From the NCBI GenBank assembly GCA_017459075.1, contig JAFUDQ010000033.1:1-64000 (forward strand): DNA of 64,000 bases. Reading direction: 5' to 3'. Both the position numbers and the translations under genes were made by a program. Below the pieces are notes generated by a model. That model was given only the letters and a program-made list of their open reading frames with translations, made no database searches and was not told the DNA's origin. Source of the DNA: Bacteroidales bacterium. GTDB lineage: Bacteria > Bacteroidota > Bacteroidia > Bacteroidales > UBA932. Below, piece after piece: positions 573 to 12,990 of the stretch. The number at the start of each line of letters is the position of its first letter. The first letter of the stretch is position 1.

Positions 573-1103
573 ATGAAACGTATTTTTATTTCTTTTATTT
601 TAATAGTTGCTTCTTTTATGTGTAAGGCTCAAATGGTTGGTCAATTCAGCTATGCAAATGATGGGCGAGTATATTTCTTTCTGAATAACCCTACTGGTTT
701 TTCATTTAATGTTATAGTTACAGCGAACAGCCCGTTTAGGGATGTAACAAAAAGAGAGAGTCAGTTTTTGCAGCCAGGTGGAGGAATATATTTAGGTCCA
801 TCAACGCCTTGGGCTTGGGAATGGTGTGAAGGCGATACTTTTACTATCACTTATCAAAACGGAGCATCGCAAACATGGAGATGTCCCTATCATGATTATG
901 CACATGAATCTGTTTCATTTAAAGGCGGCAACTATATCCTTAAAGGTGAAATTACTCTCTATAGAGTAGGAAGTGGTCGAGGAGAAGCATTTGACTTATA
1001 TGTCAAAGGTTCAACTAGATATGTTAAACACAAAGGATATTTCTACAAGATTGATGGAATTCAGTTTGTGACGATAAATAACATTAAGTATAAAATACCC
1101 TAA
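573..1103 (+). CDS. Exported protein of unknown function
   Basis: 176 residues. The first 19 residues (MKRIFISFILIVASFMCKA) look like a cleavable signal peptide, so the mature protein is probably periplasmic or secreted. The body is rich in aromatic residues, glycine and predicted beta strands, with two cysteines near Trp-rich segments (WEWCEGD and WRCPYH) that could form a disulfide. I do not recognise the family. The gene is AT-rich compared with the core genome to its right and lies alone between two transposase remnants of the same orientation, which suggests horizontally acquired cargo. No partner gene is adjacent. Confidence 0.7.
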   Translation: MKRIFISFILIVASFMCKAQMVGQFSYANDGRVYFFLNNPTGFSFNVIVTANSPFRDVTKRESQFLQPGGGIYLGPSTPWAWEWCEGDTFTITYQNGASQTWRCPYHDYAHESVSFKGGNYILKGEITLYRVGSGRGEAFDLYVKGSTRYVKHKGYFYKIDGIQFVTINNIKYKIP

Positions 1104-1138
1104 TTCCTTTTGTCATTAGTTCGTTAGTTTTATAAAGT

Positions 1139-1504
1139 TTACGTCACGGCGCGAATACCATAGAATAAGAGTTCTTTGAAATCAGTGTTAATTAATCGCG
1201 AGTCCGCGTGTTACACTAACATCGCAATAAATCAATCCACCATGGCAGCGTTGTGCAGCGGGATTTTGGTCGCACCGAGCGAAAGGTTGTATCCTTCCTA
1301 CCGGGCAGAGATCGGCAGATCTGTTGAGAAGTACACCTTCCTGGTCAGCTTCCTCTTATCATGGTCAAGGTAGTCAACAACAACGACTCTCACCTTGCCA
1401 TCTGGATGAAGTTCATGCGTCCGGAGGATGTAAAATAAAGTTCCATGGTCTCGATGATGAATGTTCGGAAAGATTTGCTTAAAATTATCAATTTTTTCAA
1501 GCAT
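1139..1504 (-). pseudogene. Second, shorter transposase remnant of the same family
   Basis: Three transposase-like pieces survive in order but not in one frame. An N-terminal piece (FRTFIIETMELYF, matching FRKFIIETMILYI of the 1-549 copy) is followed by a core piece (TRKVYFSTDLPIS, the STDL region typical of IS4-type enzymes). The last piece is a C-terminus (LHNAAMVD, then DFKELLFYGIRAVT) ending at a stop at 1139-1141 and interrupted by two in-frame stops. The stretch from GTTCTTTGAAATCAGTGT outward is nearly identical to the one at 20-40, confirming kinship. The remaining non-coding sequence from 1505 to 1676 is AT-rich; I see no gene in it. Confidence 0.7.
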
Positions 1505-1676
1505 TATTTCCGCGTTTTTCTAACACTTTTTTCGACTTTTGTTCAAGGTCGTTCGACGGATGTCTCTGACACCCCGAAACGGGCTATTGTTGTTGTAATG
1601 AATTGAAAATTATATAGTTTTTAAATTTTTAACGAAGTATTACTTATAAGAATTAATTTAAAAAATTGTGTATCCA

Positions 1677-2126
1677 ATGAAGATTCTATGTAAATTATTG
1701 TTATTCAGCCTCTTTATAATACCAATAGCCTGCTCGCCAGAGGAGTATACTCCGCATAGTAGTTCTCATGATAAAGAGAAATCACGGCTTACCAAGCCTA
1801 CATTGGACAAGTATCTGACTACTACAACTCATGACGGTGTCTCTTTCAGGGTCCGCTTCAAGAATGGTGGTGATACATTTGAGAATATGTCATGTGTCGT
1901 CCATTGGAAACGCTATCCGAGCAAACCGTCTTCTAAGCCCAGTCCTTCTGATCTGACAACGGTTGAATCCATGCGAACTTATGGTGGTGGTACCAAGGTG
2001 TCAACCACTTTTGACAAGTCACATGCTGGTTTTACGGGTGGCACGTATCTTTATTACTTCTTTGAATGTAGTAATAGTAGGTACACCACAAAGACAGACG
2101 TGACATTTTGTATAATCCCAAGGTAA
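1677..2126 (+). CDS. Small lipoprotein of unknown function
   Basis: 149 residues from the ATG at 1677; an in-frame GTG nine bases upstream is a weaker alternative. Residues 1-19 form a type II signal sequence ending in a lipobox (IPIAC), so the protein should be lipidated and membrane-anchored. The following 35 residues are a Ser/Lys/Thr-rich linker. The rest alternates strands and turns with CVVHWKRYP and a Tyr-rich C-terminal segment (GTYLYYFFEC), suggesting a small beta-sandwich. I do not recognise the family. It is AT-rich and belongs to the accessory island. Confidence 0.65.
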   Translation: MKILCKLLLFSLFIIPIACSPEEYTPHSSSHDKEKSRLTKPTLDKYLTTTTHDGVSFRVRFKNGGDTFENMSCVVHWKRYPSKPSSKPSPSDLTTVESMRTYGGGTKVSTTFDKSHAGFTGGTYLYYFFECSNSRYTTKTDVTFCIIPR

Positions 2127-2279
2127 TAGCTAAATCTATAGTAATAGTTACGGATAATAGAACAAAATTGAAAATGGAGTTTTGATAAAAAAAGGAACCG
2201 GCGCAAAAAGATTCCTTCAGCACACTGAAAGAAATCGGCCAGACAAGTACTCTATAAGATAACAAAAACACATTAGCGT

Positions 2280-2654
2280 ATGAAATGGTTAAATAATATT
2301 CTTAAGTATGTTGTCGGGATGATGTCTATTGGAATCATCTCCGGTGCTGAGTGCGCTCTGTTAGATGAATGGAGCCTAGACTCGACTATTCTTTCAATCG
2401 TTTACGCCTTAATAGCGCCCTTCTTACCTTTAATCATCTGCACGCTTGCTTCTTTTTGGGATAAAACATGGGCCCGAGTCTTAATGATTACAGGCTGTTT
2501 GGTTCAGTACATTTTTGCATTGTCTTTTGTAATAGACCTCCCGCTAGACCAGCTATCTCCATTTATGCCCGTATTGGCAGCTATTTACACCGTATTTCTT
2601 ATCTGCATTATAGTCTCTCTTATTATAGACAGGAAGAAAAAAAGCATCAAGTAA
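2280..2654 (+). CDS. Small integral membrane protein, four predicted helices
   Basis: 124 residues with hydrophobic segments at about residues 8-24, 38-59, 66-87 and 94-115, and a basic tail (DRKKKSIK) that should stay in the cytoplasm. No catalytic motif is visible and I cannot name a family. It is the first gene of a same-strand run leading into the protease and sigma-factor cassette, 108 bases ahead of the small Cys-rich protein. The spacer between them carries no clear gene. Its job in the cassette is unknown; a membrane sensor or scaffold is only a guess from position. Confidence 0.6.
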   Translation: MKWLNNILKYVVGMMSIGIISGAECALLDEWSLDSTILSIVYALIAPFLPLIICTLASFWDKTWARVLMITGCLVQYIFALSFVIDLPLDQLSPFMPVLAAIYTVFLICIIVSLIIDRKKKSIK

Positions 2655-2762
2655 TCCCATTCACATACAAAAGTAAAACTCCCACGCTATGGTCTCCATT
2701 AAGCGCGGAAGAACAATCAGAAATTAGAAGACTTAAATACGGATATTAAAAACTCTACCACC

Positions 2763-3035
2763 ATGAAAACAGAAAAAAGAATTAAAGGAATTATCATCGC
2801 ATTAGCTACTATCCTGTGTTTATCCGGGGGCGTCTGGATGGTATCCACCAACGCATATGCATCCCCGGCTGACAGTGAAAATGCAGACAGTTCTCAATCT
2901 AAATACCGCAACAAGAAATGCAGTGTCATGGAGCACTCACAGAGGTATTGCCAATGCTCAGGCTTCGATGCGCAGAACTGGGACGCATCAAGATGCAGGA
3001 AATGTGGCCATAAAGCCGTAAAACACACCAGATAA
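2763..3035 (+). CDS. Small exported Cys-rich protein upstream of CHAT protease
   Basis: 90 residues. A basic start and a hydrophobic stretch (about residues 9-33, ending near NAYASPAD) form a signal peptide or anchor. The remaining roughly 50 residues carry CSVMEHSQRYCQC and CRKCGH, that is five cysteines and several histidines arranged like a small zinc-ribbon or disulfide-rich module. The stop overlaps the start of the CHAT gene by one base, implying translational coupling. That coupling and the size make it a candidate ligand, inhibitor or substrate of the protease, but this is inference. No family is recognised. Confidence 0.62.
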   Translation: MKTEKRIKGIIIALATILCLSGGVWMVSTNAYASPADSENADSSQSKYRNKKCSVMEHSQRYCQCSGFDAQNWDASRCRKCGHKAVKHTR

Positions 3036-5710
3036 TGCGCTCTACCTTTCGCATTTTAGCCATCTTCCTGCTTTTTCTGCTGCCGATAATGGCCATAGGC
3101 CAGAGTCAGCAGCAGAAGGCATTAGCCGTACTGGCTGCCAAACAATACAAAGAGGGTATGAACCTTGAGTCTGACCGGCAGTTTGAGGCGGCTCTCTCCT
3201 GCATGGAAAAGGCGCGTGCCGGTTTCCAGGCGGCCGGAGAGATAAAATTTGAAATGAAATCATTGTATCGGATCGGCGTCCTTAAAAAATATTTGTACGA
3301 CTACAAAGGCTCTCTGGCAGCATTCAAAGAAGCTGAAGAACTTGCTACAGATGACGGAGACAAGATGGAGATGATGGCAGAGCAAAGGTCTATTTGCGCA
3401 ACGATAGGTGATAATGAAGCCCTTGCCGCTGTCTCAAACAGGATGGAACAGTTAAGCGCACATTCCAACAACGTGCTGCTCATGTACGCATATAATGAAT
3501 TCCGGGGTAAACAAGCCCTTAATGAAAGTCGGTACAAAGATGCGGAACGATGGTTTTTGCAGAATGAGAGGTTGCTGCCTTTGCTAACCCCTGATTATCG
3601 ATATTCGTTATATATTAAACTGTGGGTTTTGTATTCCAACACAGGAGAATGGGAGAAGGCTCACCAATATGCCAATTCCGTCAAAGAAGATGCGCAGGGT
3701 TTCTACAAGCCTTCGGAGGTGGGTTATTATATGCCTTACGGCGATATTGCCGATACTTATCGTCGCCAGGGAGACAGTCTTAGCTGTTTCCTCTATCTTG
3801 ATTCCCTTTCGCAAGCTATTCCTTTGACGATGGAGCCAAGGGAACTTCTTCATATTTACAGGTTCATGGCTTATGCTCACAGCTCCTTTGGTAATCCGGC
3901 AAAGGCCCTGGATAGCTTTAGGACGGCAGACAGTCTTCTGGCTACTAAATATGGAGATAGTGATAAAGACAGGGTTGGCCTTCTTGCTCAAATGGCAGGG
4001 ATGGAATTTCAGTGCGGGAATGTTGCAGAGGCGGAACGGCTGTACCGTCGATATGCAGAAAACATCAAGGCTTTAACGGGAGAAAACAGCACCTCATACA
4101 TAGATGCCCTCAATTATCAGGCAAATGCAGAGGCTTTTGCCGGCCATCTGGAAGCGGCTGCCAATGACTATACGGAGGCGGCAAGGCGCTTGAAACAGCA
4201 GGTCCGCAGCAAATGGCCTTACCTTACATCGTCAGAAAGAGAAGGTTATTGGCGGACGGTTTCCGACCTCTTTCTTGACATGACTCCTTTTGCTCTGAAA
4301 GCCGGGGAATTCCAGACTCCCTTTACTGTGGCCTGCTATGATAATTTGATTCTTACTAAGGCTTTTCTTCTTGCCTCGGAACAGTCTACCTACGAACTTA
4401 TAAAACACCATGGGACCCAGGATGATTTGGAGGCTTTCTCTAAAATCCAGGCATTGCAGGGTAAGATTCGCTTTTGGGAAAGCCGGGACGGGAACAAAGC
4501 GTTCGCAGACAGCATAATCAGAGCAACATCGGCAATAAGTCGGTTGGAAACGCCGCTGGCGAAAAGATGCCAATCTTACGGTGATGCGACCGCTTATATG
4601 TCCGTCGATTATGCCTCAATAAAGCAGGCTCTTGGCAAAAATGACGTGCTCTTGGACTTTACCGACTTTGTATCCGAAAGCAGGGGCCGGGTGTACGCAG
4701 CCTATGTAGTTCAAAAGAATCAAGACCATCCTGTTTTAAAAGAACTTTTTAAGGAAAGCAGTATTGACTCTTTGAATGCACGATACTCATACCAGTATTA
4801 TTCGGGGACTAAAGCTAAGCGCATCTTAAGCCTTCTTTGGGAGCCGCTTAAGGAATATGTTAAAGAGGATGCTACTGTTTATTATATCCCATCCCAGTTT
4901 CTGTTTCAAATTGCTCCTGAATCCCTTCCTCTTGAAGACGGGACTTTGCTTGGAGACCATTACAATTTTGTGCGGCTTTCATCTGCCCGCGAACTGACCG
5001 GTTACAGTTCTTCCATGGATAATAGCCGTTCTGATGCTGTTTTATATGGAGACTTGCTGTATAATTCAGATGCAGCCGGAAAGCAGGAATCTGGGGAAGC
5101 GGTCAGGGGAGATTTGCCGTTTAATTATCTGCCTGGTACCAAGAGAGAGATTCTTGACATAGAAAACATATTGCAACACAAGGGTATTGCAATTCTGCCG
5201 AAAACCGGCACAGATGGCACAACTGCGTCATTTTTCAGCCTGAATAGGAGTGCTCCACACATACTCCATATAGCTACTCACGGCTTCTATTACACCCCTA
5301 ATGCGGCACGAAAAATTGATTATCTCCGTGGCTACACAGACGCAATGTCCTTATCAGGACTCGTCTTTGCCGATGGTATCCTTACTGCTGCCGATATCTC
5401 CAAAATGGACCTTTCCGGCATTGAAATGGTTGTCCTGTCTGCCTGCCATTCAGGAAAAGGGGAGGCTACCCCGGAAGGGCTTTACGGCCTTCAACGAGCT
5501 TTCAAGAAAGCCGGAGTCAAAACTATCGTTATGTCCCTATGGGCAGAGAGTGAAGTCGTCGGACCGGAATTTATGGCAGAATTCTATAGGAATTTGGCCG
5601 GACAATGCAAATGGGACAAGCGGGCTGCTTTTACCAGGGCAAAGAAAACAATCGGTAAGAAATATCATGATACTCCGTCCTATTGGGCCGGATTTATAAT
5701 GCTTGATTAA
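3035..5710 (+). CDS. Exported TPR-CHAT domain protease
   Basis: 891 residues. A signal peptide (about residues 1-22) targets it across the inner membrane. Residues 25-400 are tetratricopeptide-like helical repeats, probably for partner binding. The C-terminal third is a CHAT domain, a caspase-related (clan CD) protease fold. The expected dyad is visible as His749 in HIATHGFYY and Cys804 in LSACHSGKG, and the end matches typical CHAT domains (SYWAGFIML). Both catalytic residues are intact, so activity is plausible. The next gene is a second caspase-fold protease, starting one base after this stop, then a sigma factor and an anti-sigma-like protein. Substrate unknown. An exported CHAT protein next to a sigma pair is the notable point. 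Confidence 0.88.
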   Translation: MRSTFRILAIFLLFLLPIMAIGQSQQQKALAVLAAKQYKEGMNLESDRQFEAALSCMEKARAGFQAAGEIKFEMKSLYRIGVLKKYLYDYKGSLAAFKEAEELATDDGDKMEMMAEQRSICATIGDNEALAAVSNRMEQLSAHSNNVLLMYAYNEFRGKQALNESRYKDAERWFLQNERLLPLLTPDYRYSLYIKLWVLYSNTGEWEKAHQYANSVKEDAQGFYKPSEVGYYMPYGDIADTYRRQGDSLSCFLYLDSLSQAIPLTMEPRELLHIYRFMAYAHSSFGNPAKALDSFRTADSLLATKYGDSDKDRVGLLAQMAGMEFQCGNVAEAERLYRRYAENIKALTGENSTSYIDALNYQANAEAFAGHLEAAANDYTEAARRLKQQVRSKWPYLTSSEREGYWRTVSDLFLDMTPFALKAGEFQTPFTVACYDNLILTKAFLLASEQSTYELIKHHGTQDDLEAFSKIQALQGKIRFWESRDGNKAFADSIIRATSAISRLETPLAKRCQSYGDATAYMSVDYASIKQALGKNDVLLDFTDFVSESRGRVYAAYVVQKNQDHPVLKELFKESSIDSLNARYSYQYYSGTKAKRILSLLWEPLKEYVKEDATVYYIPSQFLFQIAPESLPLEDGTLLGDHYNFVRLSSARELTGYSSSMDNSRSDAVLYGDLLYNSDAAGKQESGEAVRGDLPFNYLPGTKREILDIENILQHKGIAILPKTGTDGTTASFFSLNRSAPHILHIATHGFYYTPNAARKIDYLRGYTDAMSLSGLVFADGILTAADISKMDLSGIEMVVLSACHSGKGEATPEGLYGLQRAFKKAGVKTIVMSLWAESEVVGPEFMAEFYRNLAGQCKWDKRAAFTRAKKTIGKKYHDTPSYWAGFIMLD

Positions 5711-6562
5711 ATGAGAAGGGCTATTTGCATATTTTTATTGTTTCAGCTGATGGCGTCTTTGGCGCATGCTCAACAGCGGCATGCTCTGGTCATAGGAATC
5801 GGCCAATATGAAGATGCCGCTTGGGGAAGAATACATGGGGATAGCGATATCTATTATGCCGTTAAGATGCTTAAGGTCAATCACTTCAATGATATTATTA
5901 CCTTGAAGAATGAAGAAGCGACCAAAAAGTCCATTCTATCTGCTTTTGATACCTTGCAGCGTAATTGTAAACTTGGCGACAAAGTTTATATTCAGTTTTC
6001 CGGTCACGGGCAGCAGGTTACAGATGTCGATGGTGATGAGGAGAATGGGTATGATGAGGCTTGGATTCCCTATGATGCAAGGCCGCTATACAAAAAGGAT
6101 GTCTATGAAGGAGAAAACCACTTGATTGATGATGAAGTGAATAGGCTTCTTTCAATTATCAAGGCGAAAATTGGCCCATCCGGGCAAATTGTTGTTGTGG
6201 TTGATGCCTGCCATAGCGGTGATTCCACAAGGGAACCAGGGGATGATGCAGTGGCCAGGGGTTTTGATGAAAAATTTGAAATCCCGAAAAGGAATCCGGC
6301 CCGGAAAGAAGCATTAAAAGAGGACTGGATAACGATAAGTCCCTGCAAATCTCATCAGATTAACTGGGAAATTGCTAAACCATCCGTGGGAAAACTGACC
6401 TGGTGTCTTTATAATCTCCGTTGGATTTTAAGTGGTCTTTCCAACGATGCTTTGGAGGAAAAGATTAGGCAAATCATGCAGGAGAATCCCGGTCCCTTGG
6501 AACAGACTCCGGATTTCACCGGATGTCTTGGTGTACAACAAATAAATGACCTTTTCCGTTAA
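5711..6562 (+). CDS. Exported metacaspase-like (C14) protease
   Basis: 283 residues with a signal peptide (about 1-20, ending AHAQ). The caspase-fold p20-like core follows: strand HALVIGIGQY, the catalytic His99 in FSGHGQQ and Cys167 in VDACHSGDS. An acidic segment (DVDGDEENGYDEAW) between them could bind calcium, as in some metacaspases. The family cleaves after basic or, for some members, acidic residues; which applies here cannot be told from sequence. It starts directly after the CHAT gene stop and is followed by a sigma factor with almost no spacing, so all are probably co-transcribed. Both cysteine proteases are predicted outside the cytoplasm. Confidence 0.87.
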   Translation: MRRAICIFLLFQLMASLAHAQQRHALVIGIGQYEDAAWGRIHGDSDIYYAVKMLKVNHFNDIITLKNEEATKKSILSAFDTLQRNCKLGDKVYIQFSGHGQQVTDVDGDEENGYDEAWIPYDARPLYKKDVYEGENHLIDDEVNRLLSIIKAKIGPSGQIVVVVDACHSGDSTREPGDDAVARGFDEKFEIPKRNPARKEALKEDWITISPCKSHQINWEIAKPSVGKLTWCLYNLRWILSGLSNDALEEKIRQIMQENPGPLEQTPDFTGCLGVQQINDLFR

Positions 6563-6563
6563 T

Positions 6564-7181
6564 ATGTCAGGATTATTTCTATCAAAGGAAGCTCGTTTTG
6601 TGCAAAGCATCCGCTCTGGAGACCGTATGGCAGAGCGGGAGTTCTTTGATTACTGTTACTCTTATTGCATGAATGCCCAGAGCGGGAATGCTTTTTTCTC
6701 CAAAGACCGCTTTCAGGATGCATTCTTACAAATATGGACAGAGATTCAGGATGGACGTATCTTCTTGAACAAAGGTAATATTTGGCGACAGCCAAAGGCT
6801 AAAGGCGCAGTAGCGGCTCCTATGTCTTGCAGTCTCAGAAGCTTTATCGTTGATATCTGCAATAAACAGGGTTCAAAGGAATCCAGAGTACCGTTTGTTG
6901 TCATAAGTGCTTCTGAGAGAGAGATTTGTGGGGATGATTTAACAGGATTTGAGCGTATGGATGAAGAAGAACGTCTTAGGATTATCCATTCTTGCATTGG
7001 GGAGATGTCCCGTCATTGCCGGGAGATACTGACTCTGTTTTATGTCAAGGGCTTAAGTCTTGAACAGATTATGAAGAAAAGGAATGAGCATGTAAGCAAA
7101 GATGGGCTCAAAACAAGTAAAAGCAAATGTATGCAACGGCTTCGTGATTCAGTTTTAACAACATATATATCCCTTCAATAG
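6564..7181 (+). CDS. Sigma-70 family (ECF-like) sigma factor
   Basis: 205 residues from the ATG at 6564, one base after the protease stop; an in-frame ATG at 6546 would overlap the protease gene. The N-terminal part (FVQSIRSGDRMAEREFFDYC, then RFQDAFLQIWTEI) matches region 2 of ECF sigma factors. The C-terminal part (REILTLFYVKGLSLEQIM ... SKCMQRLRD) matches region 4, the -35-binding helix-turn-helix. A linker of about 50 residues separates them. It should direct RNA polymerase to a small regulon. The anti-sigma-like gene begins two bases after its stop, the usual arrangement for a sigma/anti-sigma pair. Confidence 0.85.
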   Translation: MSGLFLSKEARFVQSIRSGDRMAEREFFDYCYSYCMNAQSGNAFFSKDRFQDAFLQIWTEIQDGRIFLNKGNIWRQPKAKGAVAAPMSCSLRSFIVDICNKQGSKESRVPFVVISASEREICGDDLTGFERMDEEERLRIIHSCIGEMSRHCREILTLFYVKGLSLEQIMKKRNEHVSKDGLKTSKSKCMQRLRDSVLTTYISLQ

Positions 7182-7183
7182 CT

Positions 7184-7738
7184 ATGAAATACCCGGAAGA
7201 CAAAATAGATGCATATTTGCAAGGCAAGATGACATCGTCCGAAAAAGAAGCTTTTGAATCAGAAATGAATCGGGATTCGGCCTTTAAGGAAGAAGTTAAT
7301 TTGATGCGCTCAATAATCTGTGGCCTTAGTGACAGGCAGAATAAATTGGAAGCATTGGAGGCTTGGCAGGGAGAGGCAGAGAAGGGGAGTCGTTCTTCCA
7401 AGAGAAAGTGGATGCCATGGGTGACAGCGTATAGTACCGCAGCGGCTGTCGTCGCCGGTGTGCTTCTCTTCATGCCGCCATCGGCTGTGGATGATAATCC
7501 AATGCCATCGACCATTCAGGAAGTTGATAGTTCACGCGGTGGCAACATTTCATTTAAGGGGCAGCCTGATAACAAAGAAGATTTGGATTCTTTGGAAGCT
7601 GAGATAGCCAGGATGGAGAGTTTGCTTAAGGAGGCTCTTCGCAAGCGTGAGGAGGCGGATTATGACGTCAAGAAATACGAGTATGCGCTTGAACAGCTTA
7701 AGAAGAAACGCGAAATGACAGATTCTACCAAGTTCTGA
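7184..7738 (+). CDS. Membrane-anchored anti-sigma-like protein
   Basis: 184 residues. Residues 1-65 form a cytoplasmic helical domain beginning with DKIDAYLQGKMTSSEKEAF, the pattern seen at the N-terminus of many Bacteroidota anti-sigma factors. One transmembrane helix follows at about 79-98 after a basic stretch (SSKRKW), which predicts the N-terminus inside. Residues 131-178 are a strong coiled coil (LEAEIARMESLLKEALRK and onward) predicted outside the inner membrane. This topology would put its C-terminal part in the same compartment as the two exported caspase-fold proteases encoded upstream. The role as sigma antagonist is inferred from adjacency and domain layout. It lacks the usual zinc-binding HxxxCxxC motif. 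Confidence 0.75.
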   Translation: MKYPEDKIDAYLQGKMTSSEKEAFESEMNRDSAFKEEVNLMRSIICGLSDRQNKLEALEAWQGEAEKGSRSSKRKWMPWVTAYSTAAAVVAGVLLFMPPSAVDDNPMPSTIQEVDSSRGGNISFKGQPDNKEDLDSLEAEIARMESLLKEALRKREEADYDVKKYEYALEQLKKKREMTDSTKF

Positions 7739-7764
7739 ACTCTATATTATAAAACGAAATACTA

Positions 7765-7926
7765 ATGAGTGATGAATTCAATTCTGTCCCGTTGGACACT
7801 ATCTCTGATTATTTGGAAGGGTTCCTGCCAGAAGATGAAGAGAAAGACCTGTTTTTGAAGGTTAACACAGTCGAAGACCTTTGGGCCCTTGCCCAAATGA
7901 CGAGTACCATAAACATGGATAGTTGA
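7765..7926 (+). CDS. Short anti-sigma-N-terminus-like protein (53 residues)
   Basis: An ATG at 7765 opens 53 residues ending at TGA 7924-7926. The sequence (DTISDYLEGFLPEDEEKDLF) resembles the N-terminus of the preceding anti-sigma-like protein (DKIDAYLQGKMTSSEKEAF) but has no membrane helix. It is followed, with a TGATG overlap, by the next gene, so both should be translated together. It may be a soluble sigma-binding paralogue or a truncated copy. It is acidic and soluble. No family is recognised. Confidence 0.5.
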   Translation: MSDEFNSVPLDTISDYLEGFLPEDEEKDLFLKVNTVEDLWALAQMTSTINMDS

Positions 7927-8321
7927 TGAAACAAGACAAAATATCTTTTTACTCTGCTGAGGCGGAGCCATATATTCTTGAAGCGGCCAACTCATTATGG
8001 GAGCAGGGGAAATCAATGATTCAAGAGCTTCCTGAGATTATCTACATTGCTGGTAAAGCAGTTAATTCGCGTATCAAAGGGGTCTTCAAGGAGTGTGACT
8101 TCACTTATGCTCTCTTTATCGTAAGAGACGAGGGTAGGCCTGGACGTATATTTTTGGGGCTGTCGGCACTTAGTTCCTTGGCCTGCATGGACTCATCCAT
8201 TTACATGATGAATTCCACAAACAAAGGTATCCTAGAATATCTGGATAGTGAACTCACTCCTTACGGAGTAGCCATTGAATTGTTAGGTTTGATGGATTCT
8301 GTGTATAAGCACGCTACTTAA
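7926..8321 (+). CDS. Protein of unknown function, end of sigma/protease cassette
   Basis: 131 residues from the ATG at 7926, chosen because it overlaps the stop of the preceding small gene (TGATG); a TTG three bases earlier is possible. No signal peptide or membrane helix is visible, so it is probably cytoplasmic. Predicted secondary structure is mixed alpha/beta, with a central strand (YALFIVRDEGRPGRIFLGL) and a helical C-terminus. I do not recognise it. As the last same-strand gene of the cassette it may be an output or accessory component. Confidence 0.6.
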   Translation: MKQDKISFYSAEAEPYILEAANSLWEQGKSMIQELPEIIYIAGKAVNSRIKGVFKECDFTYALFIVRDEGRPGRIFLGLSALSSLACMDSSIYMMNSTNKGILEYLDSELTPYGVAIELLGLMDSVYKHAT

Positions 8322-8329
8322 TAACGCGG

Positions 8330-8425
8330 AAGAAAAGTGCGCCGCGGACTGTTCCGGTGGAGTACCGCTTCAATGCGGATAAATATGCAGAAATGAAGTC
8401 AAAGGGTTTTAGATTAGAGTTTTAG
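8330..8425 (+). pseudogene. C-terminal fragment of a lost gene
   Basis: One frame reads about 31 residues (including VPVEYRFNADKYAEMKSKGF) to a TAG at 8423-8425, with no start codon. It ends just before a strong ribosome-binding site (AGGAGGGA) that serves the next fragment. This looks like the 3' end of a gene whose front was removed by recombination. The parent family is not recognised. Confidence 0.35.
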
Positions 8426-8437
8426 GAGGGAAAAGCT

Positions 8438-8641
8438 ATGAATAACAGAGAATTTACACCAGAAAGAGTAACGGAACTGAAGCCGAACGAGATTTTCGTT
8501 TTTGGTAGCAATCTTGCCGGAGCACATGGCGGTGGGGCAGCCCGCCTGGCGTATGAACGCTTCGGAGCTGTGTGGGGACAGGGCGTAGGCAAGACCCATA
8601 TACTACTTTCGTTTTTTAGACAGGTCCCGTCCTGTTGTTAG
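8438..8641 (+). pseudogene. Truncated phage-type conserved protein (A1S_2505-like)
   Basis: The reading frame starts well, with AGGAGGGA seven bases upstream of the ATG. About 50 residues (ELKPNEIFVFGSNLAGAHGG, then AARLAYERFGAVWGQGVG) match a conserved phage and bacterial protein I recall as the A1S_2505-type family, usually two to three times longer. After GQGVG the sequence changes to an unrelated tail (KTHILLSFFRQVPSCC) and stops at 67 residues. It is therefore a 5' fragment joined to foreign sequence. Bases 8642-8785 after it hold no gene that I can support. The family name is from memory; the truncation is what the sequence shows. Confidence 0.6.
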
Positions 8642-8785
8642 TTAATGTCAAGCAGCCGACCGTAGGTAGAGCCAACCGCACGGATTGGTAGATAGACCCT
8701 TTTTGTCGTGTCTGAAACAAAAACAATGATAGATTTTGCGACTTTGCTGCCTCTATAAGGCAAGTAAAATCAAGATTTAAAAACA

Positions 8786-9829
8786 ATGAAAATTTCCATC
8801 AAATCTATCCTTGGGGCCACCTGGAAGGTGGGACTTGGTTTGTTCGGGCTGGGGACGGCAATCATCGGCATTCTTGCTGCTATAACGTGGCATGAGAAAA
8901 CTCACGGTCACATGTATTGGTATGATCGAACACTGACGGGTAACATCGTCGTAGAGTCTTATTTCGATAACACGGTACGCGTGTGGGACAAGGAAAGCGG
9001 GTCTTACACTACCGGAAAGCTACGCTGGGTATCCGGCGCCCCCCGCAATGACAGCCTTACCGTATTCTGCGATACGGAAGGCAGGCGTGGTTACATCAAT
9101 GTAAAAACCGGCAAAATCGCCATTCCTGCACAGTACAACAAGGCATGGCAGTTCTCCGAAGGCCTGGGCGCTGTTATGGGAGAAAATGATTATATCGGAT
9201 TCATCGACAAGGATAATAATCTTGTCATCGATTATGAGATTCCTTACGAAAAGGGATTCGATTATGTTTTCAAAGACGGTTTTTGCGTTGTAAAATATTG
9301 GGATTCAGATAAATATCGTTGTGCCGTTTATGGGAAGGAAGGTGTGGTTCTTGGCTGGAATTACACTCGTATAGATGAGCCGGAATGCGGTTACCGGGTT
9401 GTTGAAAATGAGGACGGCTGCTGGCTGTACGACAGCAACTTTAACAAGGTGCTTCCGGATACTTATGAAAAATTGGCGGTTATCCGGGAGAAGAATGGCA
9501 TTTATGCTACCAAAAACCATATTAAGCAGCTGCTTGCCTTTGACGGGACTGTGATTGAACCCTTTGTCATTGATGACACCTACAAGCTGAAATATGTGGC
9601 AAAATATGATAAGTACGGCGATGCTGAATATGAAGAGCTTCATGATATTGTTGTGTATCAAATGGGTATTTGGGAGGGACTTATGGATTCAAGGACCGGA
9701 AGAATCATTACGCCTCCCGATTACTGGACCTTCGAAGCGATAACCAAAGACCTGGTTTTGGCCCAGTTGGCCCAGCCACGCGGAAGCGTTGTAATGGACC
9801 GCCACGGGAATGTACTGCGGAAACAGTAA
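8786..9829 (+). CDS. WG-repeat protein with N-terminal membrane anchor
   Basis: 347 residues. A hydrophobic helix at about residues 10-33 (GATWKVGLGLFGLGTAIIGI and onward) anchors it, with the bulk outside the cytoplasm. The rest consists of WG-type (KWG) repeats: units such as RRGYINVKTGKIAIPAQYNK, DYIGFIDKDNNLVIDYEI and VVMDRHGNVLRKQ, each a short beta-meander. WG-repeat proteins are common in gut Bacteroidota and mostly uncharacterised; binding is the usual guess. It sits alone between a truncated gene and a small fragment in the accessory island. Confidence 0.75.
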   Translation: MKISIKSILGATWKVGLGLFGLGTAIIGILAAITWHEKTHGHMYWYDRTLTGNIVVESYFDNTVRVWDKESGSYTTGKLRWVSGAPRNDSLTVFCDTEGRRGYINVKTGKIAIPAQYNKAWQFSEGLGAVMGENDYIGFIDKDNNLVIDYEIPYEKGFDYVFKDGFCVVKYWDSDKYRCAVYGKEGVVLGWNYTRIDEPECGYRVVENEDGCWLYDSNFNKVLPDTYEKLAVIREKNGIYATKNHIKQLLAFDGTVIEPFVIDDTYKLKYVAKYDKYGDAEYEELHDIVVYQMGIWEGLMDSRTGRIITPPDYWTFEAITKDLVLAQLAQPRGSVVMDRHGNVLRKQ

Positions 9830-9898: not shown

Positions 9899-10399
9899 GT
9901 GTTTAAGAGAATATATATAAAGTGGTTGGTATGGCGAGGCAAGGCTGTTGATATAGGTTCTAATGGCGCTTACCCTGCCGATGTATTGTCTAACTTCACC
10001 CCATACACCTTTACATTCCGTGGGATTGACTTCATTTCAATGGAGGCTCTATTGCAAGGATTGAAGTTTGAGGGTGTCGAAAAGCAGGCTAAGATATTCA
10101 AACTGGTTGGAGTACAGGCAAAGTTCAAGGGCAAGAAGCGTAAATGGTACCTTGACCAACGCCTCTACTGGCAAGGTAAACCCATGATGAGGGATTCAGA
10201 AGAATATCAATTGTTATTAAAAGAGGCTTTTGATGCATTAGCACAAAACGAGGACTTCCGAAAGGCGTTACTGGCAACAGGCAGTAAGCGGCTGTATCAC
10301 ACAATGGGTAAGTCTGACCCAACCAAGACTATATTGACAGAAGAGGAATTCTGCTCGATATTAGTAAAGATAAGAACGAGATTGCAGAACAATGGTTGA
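9899..10399 (+). CDS. NADAR-family protein (ADP-ribose-related glycosidase fold)
   Basis: 166 residues from a GTG at 9899. The core reads LSNFTPYTFTFRGIDFISME, then ALLQGLKFEG, the signature of the NADAR/YbiA family (SNF, then E, then QxxKF). Later come the Trp-rich YWQGKPMMRD and the C-terminal LYHTMGKSDP. Characterised members hydrolyse N-glycosidic bonds of riboflavin intermediates or ADP-ribosylated nucleobases and are frequent in phages and defence or counter-defence loci. The residues I expect to be important (the glutamate in SMEAL, the lysine in KFEG) are present. It lies next to the broken A1S_2505-like gene, so it may be the survivor of a larger phage-related cluster. Cytoplasmic. 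Confidence 0.75.
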   Translation: MFKRIYIKWLVWRGKAVDIGSNGAYPADVLSNFTPYTFTFRGIDFISMEALLQGLKFEGVEKQAKIFKLVGVQAKFKGKKRKWYLDQRLYWQGKPMMRDSEEYQLLLKEAFDALAQNEDFRKALLATGSKRLYHTMGKSDPTKTILTEEEFCSILVKIRTRLQNNG

Positions 10400-10472
10400 G
10401 AAGACAGAATACAATATTATACGTCGAGGCAAGTATTTGGGTTCATGGGAAGCCTGTTGTGCTGGTCATTGA
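10392..10472 (+). pseudogene. 5' fragment truncated at the island boundary
   Basis: An ATG overlapping the end of the NADAR gene opens 26 residues (EKTEYNIIRRGKYLGSWEAC) and stops inside the 3' end of the oppositely oriented DUF554 gene. It looks like a gene start joined to core sequence, which would mark the right-hand edge of the accessory island near 10,440-10,470. Confidence 0.3.
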
Positions 10473-11179
10473 TGCCAAAAGGATAGCTGAAAGCGGTCAA
10501 ACAGGGACTTTACAAGAAACCATACAACCGGGACCAGCAGCGACGGAAGGAAATTCAGGGTTTTGCAGTCTTTAATGTCCAGGAGGGACAGGCTGGAAGA
10601 CATAATCAGCACGCCTCCCACAATGGCCAGTTCGTTCACAAGTGTCCCCTGCAAAAGCGGGCTGGAAGACGCCAGGGTTGCAATCAGCCAGAACATTCCC
10701 TGCCAGCAGAAAAGAATCGGCGCCGTAACAATCATTCCAATACCGAAGGTGGTGGCAAACACCATCGACGTAACAAGATCAAGGGTCGCGTTTGTGTAAA
10801 GGAAGGTGTTGTCTCCCGTGAGAGCGCTCATCACCGGGCCGACGATGGAGAAAGTGCCGATGCAGAATAGCAGGCTGGCCGATATTATTCCTTTTGCCAG
10901 GCCTTCACCGGCCTTTTTGGCCATCAGCCTTTTCACTCGGCCGTCAAGGTCAAGTGCGGTGCCGATGATGCCACCGATGGCAAGGCTCAGTATGAAGAGG
11001 ACCGGAAATTCGCTCTTCGGAAGGTTTGTGACGAAGGACGATGCCCCCAGGGCCAGGGCCGCCAGCCCCATCGCATTGAAAAGGGTGGAGCGATACTTCT
11101 CTCCCAACCCCTTCCTGAACAAGGAGCCCACTATCGTGCCGGCAATGATGCAGGCGGTATTTACGATTGTTCCTAACAT
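10466..11179 (-). CDS. DUF554 integral membrane protein
   Basis: 237 residues from the ATG at 11179 (MLGTIVNTACIIAGTIVGS). An upstream in-frame extension to 11227 would cross its own promoter and is rejected. The Gly/Ala-rich hydrophobic segments, the GSLFRKGLGEKYRSTLFNAMG motif near the start and the repeated membrane helices match the DUF554 (YdfK/YqgA) family. These are inner-membrane proteins of unknown, possibly transport, function. The length fits the family (about 230). It is divergent from the lyase gene at 11242. Confidence 0.82.
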   Translation of the reverse strand: MLGTIVNTACIIAGTIVGSLFRKGLGEKYRSTLFNAMGLAALALGASSFVTNLPKSEFPVLFILSLAIGGIIGTALDLDGRVKRLMAKKAGEGLAKGIISASLLFCIGTFSIVGPVMSALTGDNTFLYTNATLDLVTSMVFATTFGIGMIVTAPILFCWQGMFWLIATLASSSPLLQGTLVNELAIVGGVLIMSSSLSLLDIKDCKTLNFLPSLLVPVVWFLVKSLFDRFQLSFWHQ

Positions 11180-12916: not shown

Positions 12917-12990
12917 CGGTGCGGAAGGGACTCGAACCCTCGACCTCCGGCGTGACAGGCCGGCATTCTAACCAGCTGAACTACCGCACC
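12917..12990 (-). tRNA. tRNA-Asp (anticodon GTC)
   Basis: Read on the minus strand, a 7-bp acceptor stem (GGTGCGG with CCGCACC), D-loop AGCTGGTTAGA, anticodon arm with loop CTGTCAC (anticodon GTC) and T-arm GGTTCGAGTC give a complete cloverleaf of 74 bases. CCA is not encoded; discriminator base G. It stands alone between the lyase and the DUF389 gene. Confidence 0.95.

Follow-up and report, generated by a model that had tools for sequence, protein, structure and literature searches.

Four adjacent genes in the window (the whole stretch of DNA analysed, 64,000 nucleotides from a Bacteroidales genome) code for an exported-looking TPR-CHAT protease, an exported-looking metacaspase-like protease, an ECF-like sigma factor and a one-pass membrane anti-sigma factor. 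The most likely reading, which we put forward tentatively, is that the ECF-like sigma factor is controlled by these clan CD proteases, which would cut the anti-sigma factor on the outer side of the inner membrane. The association of the genes and the conservation of the catalytic residues, of the pocket residues and of an arginine in the anti-sigma linker are observed, and the topology is predicted. From these we infer the binding of sigma to anti-sigma, the cleavage, the choice of protease, the direction of signalling, the signal and the targets. The gene set itself is confirmed and widely conserved, and its reading as protease-controlled sigma signalling is partly supported. A protease cascade of this kind had been suggested in an earlier note on this DNA; the predicted export, the predicted topology, the co-occurrence of the genes and the conservation of the active sites support parts of it, as does a candidate cleavage residue that is conserved in the linker outside the membrane.

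Gene organization of the locus

The features of the locus are listed in Table 1. The ORFs described in the earlier note were all there. According to their coordinates, no bases separate the CHAT and caspase genes, the caspase and sigma genes overlap by 17 bases (or are spaced by +1 counting from the second ATG of the sigma gene), and the sigma to anti-sigma spacing is +2. The genome of origin has one CHAT, one caspase of the window clade and one anti-sigma of the window family, together with 15 sigma-like matches at E<=0.01. Because the four genes lie side by side and CHAT, caspase and anti-sigma are each single-copy in this genome, the grouping exceeds chance.

Table 1. Positions and basis of assignment of the features of the locus
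Feature	Position	Strand	Basis
Predicted exported TPR-CHAT protease, 891 aa	3035..5710	+	Pfam CHAT 1.2e-44, TPR_12 2.7e-9
Predicted exported metacaspase-like (C14) protease, 283 aa	5711..6562	+	Pfam Peptidase_C14 7.6e-17
ECF-like sigma factor, 211 aa (or from ATG 6564)	6546..7181	+	Profile matches below cut-off, family profile
One-pass membrane anti-sigma factor, 184 aa	7184..7738	+	AF2 model, fold matches, relatives
R118 codon (SS-R-GG), anti-sigma outside linker	7535..7537	+	Conserved candidate P1 residue
Small ORF, 53 aa, directly 3' of the anti-sigma gene	7765..7926	+	Relative in L035
Small exported-looking Cys-rich protein, 90 aa	2763..3035	+	Sequence; weak relative in L035 cluster

Conservation of the gene set

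The co-occurrence of CHAT, caspase, sigma and anti-sigma in other genomes, on which the earlier note had made its proposal depend, proved to be conserved. In the family, 15 of 199 genomes (the genome of origin included) had a caspase match, and the caspase was present in 3 of the 18 other genomes of the same genus among those listed. Beyond the window's own there were 12 strong caspase loci (E 4.2e-103 to 5.1e-36) and four weak ones. Each of the 12 strong loci adjoins a complete or partial sigma gene, and anti-sigma and CHAT are present as well in 11 of them; at the four weak loci, BLAST found no sigma, anti-sigma or CHAT.

A scan of genome contigs returned 254 caspase relatives, the best 80 of which were taken, a sample skewed to near relatives in which some members nearly duplicate one another or one of loci L019-L027. 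By title, these 80 are Bacteroidales or Bacteroidia, or carry the name of a family or genus taken to fall within them, and many come from gut or rumen samples. Among these best 80 of 254, and uncorrected for kinship as all association counts given here, a sigma gene lies within 3 kb in 58, sigma and anti-sigma (4 kb) in 56, CHAT within 6.5 kb in 54 and all three in 37; the sigma gene starts at most 100 bases downstream of the caspase in 46. No sigma was detected within 3 kb in 22 (some near contig ends), and 17 of these 22 have CHAT, so the proteases also seem to act without a sigma factor. With four more loci and the window the set comes to 85. All four genes fall within 7 kb in 42 of the 85, in five gene orders and with 40 of the 42 co-directional: 26 have the order caspase-sigma-anti-sigma-CHAT, 10 sigma-anti-sigma-caspase-CHAT, four the window order and two other orders. 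Since the association is kept through rearrangement, it exceeds the shared descent of one operon. Distance matrices, from which near-identical rows had been removed (42 to 38), gave correlations, uncorrected for kinship, of r 0.76 for caspase and sigma, 0.72 for caspase and anti-sigma, 0.76 for sigma and anti-sigma and 0.46-0.58 for the comparisons with CHAT. Some redundant, short or oversized ORFs were left out of alignments A4-A6.

The gene set was also entered from the anti-sigma factor. A profile of 56 anti-sigmas matched 175 of the 295 genomes of the order and 68 of 118 genomes in a sample of the phylum. Forty loci of the order (the top 20 after the genome of origin and 20 hand-picked further down the list) had, in the fetched stretch, CHAT in 22, sigma in 37 and a match to the caspase profile in 4; without the latter four, CHAT was found in 19 of 36. 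In 18 of the 22 loci with CHAT, the CHAT and anti-sigma genes are on opposite strands. Outside the order, CHAT lies near the anti-sigma in 11 of 17 loci (the top 17 after the genome of origin). CHAT is present in 55 of 99 genomes of the order, namely in 27/27 with an anti-sigma match at E<1e-15 vs 28/72 of the others (Fisher 4e-9, uncorrected for kinship and with a cut chosen after the lists were seen); the figures are 34/35 vs 21/64 with a cut at 1e-10 and 43/54 vs 12/45 at 1e-3. As CHAT tracks the anti-sigma, it seems that sigma, anti-sigma and exported CHAT form the core, to which a caspase has been added in part of the Bacteroidales.

The two proteases

The CHAT protein consists of a signal-like segment (residues 1-22; MRSTFRILAIFLLFLLPIMAIGQS, read directly from the sequence), a TPR solenoid (about 30-530) and the CHAT domain (about 535-891). 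The catalytic residues, H749 (codon 5279-5281) and C804 (codon 5444-5446), are at the positions given in the earlier note, as are H99 and C167 of the caspase. H749 and C804 are invariant in 37/37 sequences. The two residues were counted by profile alignment, a narrow text pattern having missed many; 61 of the 64 CHAT ORFs retain both, and the remaining three are unaligned at the site, two of them at contig ends and one split. They are likewise kept in 22/22 and 12/12 CHATs of the two wider sets. The AF2 model of the window CHAT (pLDDT 90.4, pTM 0.86) has Csx29 as its top fold match, and the protein, a TPR solenoid followed by a CHAT domain with catalytic His and Cys, belongs to the TPR-CHAT proteases with the Csx29-like fold. 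When the PDB was searched with the single CHAT-domain sequence, just weak matches to unrelated proteins (E of at least 0.32) were obtained, and a CHAT profile of 29 sequences reached DdvA at 0.0031 and Craspase chains at 0.0083-0.011.

The caspase N-terminus is signal-like as well (MRRAICIFLLFQLMASLAHAQQ, ending in LAHA-QQ, read directly from the sequence). By a hydrophobicity script, a signal-like N-terminus is present in 58 of the 64 CHAT ORFs vs 2 of 68 sigma factors, in 19 of the 22 CHATs of the order set and in 79 of the 85 caspases, four of the others being below threshold and two without a recognised core. Both window proteases, as the earlier note had it, and most of their relatives are predicted to be exported. 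Two CHATs of the order set (L199, L190) have a C-terminal hydrophobic segment and may be membrane-anchored.

Across the 85 caspases H99 is kept in 84, C167 in 85, D46 in 84 and D165 in 85, the misses being gaps, and the acidic pair D140/D141 is kept in 85/85. In an alignment with metacaspase-1 and -4, D46 and D165 fall on the pocket residues and D140/D141 on the acidic pair. The window caspase has the His/Cys dyad and the two acidic S1 residues of metacaspase-like C14 peptidases, and D46/D165 form a predicted basic-P1 pocket. R183-G184 is invariant in 85/85 and lies between two metacaspase-aligned blocks, in the p20/p10 linker. In metacaspases, self-processing is known in the region between the p20 and p10 blocks, and R183-G184 is perhaps a self-activation site of the caspase. 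The available text of one report describes cleavage after basic residues by C14B members via two pocket Asp (PMC6426788). The caspase of locus L100 is split into two ORFs. A 1246-aa ORF at L058 holds both caspase and CHAT; it was rejected as proof of linkage because it follows an apparent tandem duplication with frame changes.

The sigma factor, the anti-sigma factor and the linker arginine

The window sigma factor matches the NCBIfam sigma70-ECF model at 4.2e-7, its 29.7 bits falling short of the 42.9 cut-off. With Pfam, part of region 4 is recognized in it, below cut-off, and region 2 is not found in the window protein alone; region 2 was found in 19 of 58 members of the sigma family. All 58 members, picked by the sigma profile, match TIGR02937 at E<=0.01, and the family profile matches SigW (1.1e-13, positions 7-183 of 193). 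In one genome (L030:634-1386) the N-terminal part of the sigma factor is fused in frame to the anti-sigma, apparently by deletion.

Model NF052375 'antisigma' gives 24.7 bits (E 2e-5) for the window anti-sigma against a cut-off of 100; it also matches 26 of 56 anti-sigma relatives. In its AF2 model (mean pLDDT 82.4, pTM 0.42), helices at 5-12, 18-30 and 32-71 are followed by a TM segment at 78-96, a low-confidence linker at 97-130 and a helix at 131-182. A Foldseek search with this model gave 14 chains at E<=10, 11 of which are anti-sigmas in complex with ECF sigma factors, every one at E>1; they come from four PDB entries (RslA, RsiW, the SigK partner and ChrR). One internal TM segment is present in 63 of 67 anti-sigma ORFs, 61 of the 63 with a net positive inner flank. 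Residues 5-71 are predicted to be inside and helix 131-182 outside, in agreement with the topology drawn in the earlier note. The window protein ends in a single helix, and many relatives have a TPR-like tail.

After removal of near-identical anti-sigmas (103 to 92), the motif R[GSA] was found 6-50 residues past the TM segment in 81 of 92 proteins, compared with a mean of 35.3 (sd 4.3, maximum 51) in 300 composition-keeping shuffles. The corresponding K[GSA] count in the same linker region was 30 vs 30.6 in shuffles, that is, Lys shows no excess. The Arg lies at a median distance of 23 residues from the TM segment (quartiles 21-25). The 11 exceptions comprise four with Arg before D or T, four with KG, two with MG and an ambiguous one (L081). 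Outside the order R[GSA] was found in 13/17, vs 5.3 in shuffles (maximum 10). When divided by setting, it is present in 44/54 caspase-linked anti-sigmas, in 19/19 CHAT-linked ones without caspase, in 2/3 order loci with a caspase match and in 16/16 whose fetched stretch contains no CHAT and no caspase, some stretches stopping at contig ends. The Arg was considered as caspase-specific, and this was rejected because the sets without caspase carry it too; since it is also found where neither protease gene adjoins, it does not name the enzyme. From its position the Arg is a candidate cut site in a flexible stalk, and a structural or docking role would fit equally.

Neighbouring genes and genomic setting

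The stop of the 90-aa Cys-rich ORF overlaps the CHAT start by one base. Its relative in the L035 cluster is weak (E 0.002), and the protein is a possible accessory. The 53-aa ORF is 61.7% identical over 47 aa to the ORF that follows the anti-sigma of L035, the nearest relative, where this ORF (10110-10262) precedes a second sigma gene (10329-10898). By eye it looks like a free anti-sigma N-domain; the anti-sigma profile gave no match to it at E<=10. Nothing ties 2280-2654 and 7926-8321 to the system, as the former had no relatives in neighbour loci L019-L034 and the latter none in the neighbour loci searched.

A transposase-like ORF, recognized by eye, lies near the contig end (85-549, minus strand). 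The GC content is 0.42-0.46 over the first 10 kb vs 0.48-0.53 over 10-30 kb. With the transposase-like ORF and the GC shift, the cluster has the look of an accessory island that precedes the tRNA at 12917-12990; at gathering score, Rfam finds two tRNAs only in the window. Downstream of the module are an apparently truncated gene (8440-8640, plus strand), with a protein start FVFGSNLAGAHGGGAARLA and an early stop, and a WG-repeat protein (8786-9829, plus strand; 2.2e-10) with a hydrophobic N-terminus. A promoter scan with the sigma-70 consensus, which is ill-suited to Bacteroidetes, gave 28 sites vs 18.0 (sd 4.9) in shuffles; terminator-like sites were not in excess (nine vs 8.7 expected).

Further exported-looking proteins accompany the caspase in other genomes. 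One cluster is found in 12 loci (L052:6831-7979, L083:6854-7999 and ten more); both members tested with Pfam (L052, L020) are trypsin-like, and in L052 and L083 the gene, trypsin-like in L052, separates the anti-sigma gene from the caspase gene, an arrangement reminiscent of DegS next to RseA. A lipoprotein-like family of about 233 aa is beside the caspase in 19 loci (L050:6424-7137 and 18 others), the members shown ending in TN; Pfam had no match for the one member tested. Families of about 507 aa (L038:10962-12437 and 13 others) and about 223 aa (L038:10260-10952 and 12 others) occur in caspase clusters, again with no Pfam match in the member tested; the exported-looking families beyond the 12-locus cluster and the 233-aa family are found in 13-15 loci. 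These additional proteins fit an input relay or an output set alike.

Proposed mechanism and alternatives

In the model that we prefer, the one-pass anti-sigma would use its inside domain to tether the sigma factor to the membrane. The TPR-CHAT protein in the envelope would recognise a signal via its TPR solenoid, and the metacaspase-like protein would supply or amplify Arg-specific cleavage, perhaps self-activated at R183-G184. CHAT or caspase would then cut the anti-sigma after linker R118, membrane and cytosolic proteases would remove the remaining stub, and the freed sigma factor would transcribe its own operon and other genes. Against such cleavage stands the Arg in 16/16 anti-sigmas without adjoining proteases, where it may have a structural role or be the target of a different protease. 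The same side takes in the 22 caspase loci with no sigma detected within 3 kb, the opposite strands of CHAT and anti-sigma in 18 of 22 loci of the order, the six of 92 anti-sigmas with K or M in place of the Arg, and the single terminal helix of the window anti-sigma. We regard as doubtful the wider proposal that a whole family of membrane anti-sigma factors in Bacteroidota is cut first by exported clan CD proteases, namely TPR-CHAT and, in some Bacteroidales, a metacaspase as well, with the cut after a conserved Arg about 23 residues outside the membrane, with the caspase self-activating at R183-G184 and with calcium and the envelope state being passed on to transcription.

The proteases could instead be the output. 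The anti-sigma would sense envelope stress itself or via another protease, and the freed sigma factor would induce the exported caspase, CHAT and others that act on damaged or foreign proteins outside. ECF sigma factors usually control their own operon, the clusters hold further exported-looking proteins (the ~233-aa family in 19 loci, the cluster with two trypsin-like members tested in 12, others in 13-15), and 17 of the best 80 of 254 loci combine CHAT and caspase without a sigma being detected in the surrounding 3 kb, all of which is in keeping with this explanation. It leaves unexplained, however, both the adjacency of anti-sigma and CHAT across gene orders and strands and the linker Arg, and DdvA has TPR-CHAT within an anti-sigma; we consider an output role possible, if somewhat improbable. 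The DdvA-like architecture could also be taken to mean that CHAT is a sensor or scaffold and the system a split DdvA: through contacts of its TPR part with the TPR-like or helical tail, CHAT would retain the anti-sigma or let it go, leaving it uncut, and the caspase would have another substrate. That many anti-sigmas have a TPR-like tail agrees with this and the linker Arg could belong to a docking segment, but a pure scaffold would not need H749 and C804, which are invariant in 37/37 and kept wherever aligned, and we find such docking unlikely. Lastly, the locus could be an accessory defence or cell-death island in which the caspase is the death effector and the sigma pair just times expression. 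Its patchy presence (3/18 other same-genus genomes listed), the lower GC of the first 10 kb (0.42-0.46 vs 0.48-0.53 over 10-30 kb) and a match of the caspase to a PADLOC caspase model (2.9e-13) point that way; PADLOC gave no match for the other five proteins scanned, including CHAT, sigma and anti-sigma, and the proteases look exported, unlike the death effectors known to us, which are cytoplasmic. We regard a death island as very improbable. Cutting of the anti-sigma by the envelope proteases remains the reading that we prefer.

Relation to known systems

The closest known systems are Craspase, with Csx29 and Csx30, and DdvA of Myxococcus. DdvA (PDB 8rot, 8rw5), whose chain matches the TPR-CHAT protein, is the transmembrane anti-sigma of the ECF factor DdvS. 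It has anti-sigma, TM segment and TPR-CHAT in one polypeptide, whereas in the window the exported CHAT and the anti-sigma are separate, and none of the caspase-locus ORFs checked has both CHAT and anti-sigma profiles. No caspase is known to go with DdvA. Craspase is cytoplasmic, whereas by the script the window CHAT and its relatives have a signal-like N-terminus; the predicted signal peptides, the membrane anti-sigma and the metacaspase all set the window system apart from it. As for the Cas7-11 of Craspase, a Pfam scan of the ten ORFs at 573-9826 found no Cas protein. In CalpL-CalpT-CalpS a cytoplasmic, nucleotide-activated Lon-type (SAVED-Lon) protease frees a sigma factor, and no such Pfam domain was found in the ten window ORFs. 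In RseA-DegS-RseP and RsiW an envelope protease cuts a one-pass anti-sigma, as proposed for the window; the protease there is a serine protease, whereas the window has a clan CD cysteine protease and a separate putative TPR sensor. Type I metacaspases and prokaryotic C14B caspases share the dyad, the pocket Asp and the acidic pair DD with the window caspase, which differs from them in being exported-looking and beside a sigma/anti-sigma pair.

The Craspase/DiCASP system of Csx29, Csx30 and CASP-sigma is described, in the available part of one paper, as RNA-activated and CRISPR-linked (PMC10028731); Csx29-Csx30 and DegS-RseA (PMC10028731) are precedents for the mechanism proposed here. ECF54 sigma genes have CHAT, subtilase and carboxypeptidase genes nearby, and proteolytic control without an anti-sigma has been proposed for them in the available text of that report (PMC8999054); by this published description alone, the CHAT context is shared and the window differs in having an anti-sigma. 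Neighbourhoods of EACC2-caspases with TRADD-N contain caspase genes, an ECF sigma and a TPR protein with DUF1822; they have other domains, and the available part of the source mentions no anti-sigma (PMC8195603). Domains of the EACC2/TRADD-N type had no Pfam match in the ten window ORFs.

The earlier note had seen in the locus an outside-in version of cytoplasmic systems. The predicted export of the proteases agrees with this, but the statement needs correcting, since DdvA is already a transmembrane anti-sigma with a TPR-CHAT match and CHAT genes beside ECF54 sigmas are already in print according to the text available (PMC8999054). CHAT or caspase genes beside ECF sigma factors have already been published for other groups; what is new is a caspase predicted to be exported, a CHAT that is likewise predicted to be exported and is a protein of its own, and the Arg in the linker. 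A literature search, outside which most subscription papers lay, found no title that links a sigma/anti-sigma pair with a CHAT or caspase protein outside the cytoplasm.

The control of ECF sigma factors in Bacteroidetes is largely open, and the anti-sigma family may fill part of the gap; in the available text of one survey only 6% of Bacteroidetes ECFs had a class I anti-sigma neighbour (PMC7406223). R118 and the two active-site cysteines are defined residues to mutate. If the proposal is true, the caspases and CHAT proteases that bacteria export would have a role assigned to them. Caspase-fold proteases would then signal across the bacterial membrane as well as inside cells, and, on the wider proposal, an extracellular caspase pathway would control gene expression in bacteria.
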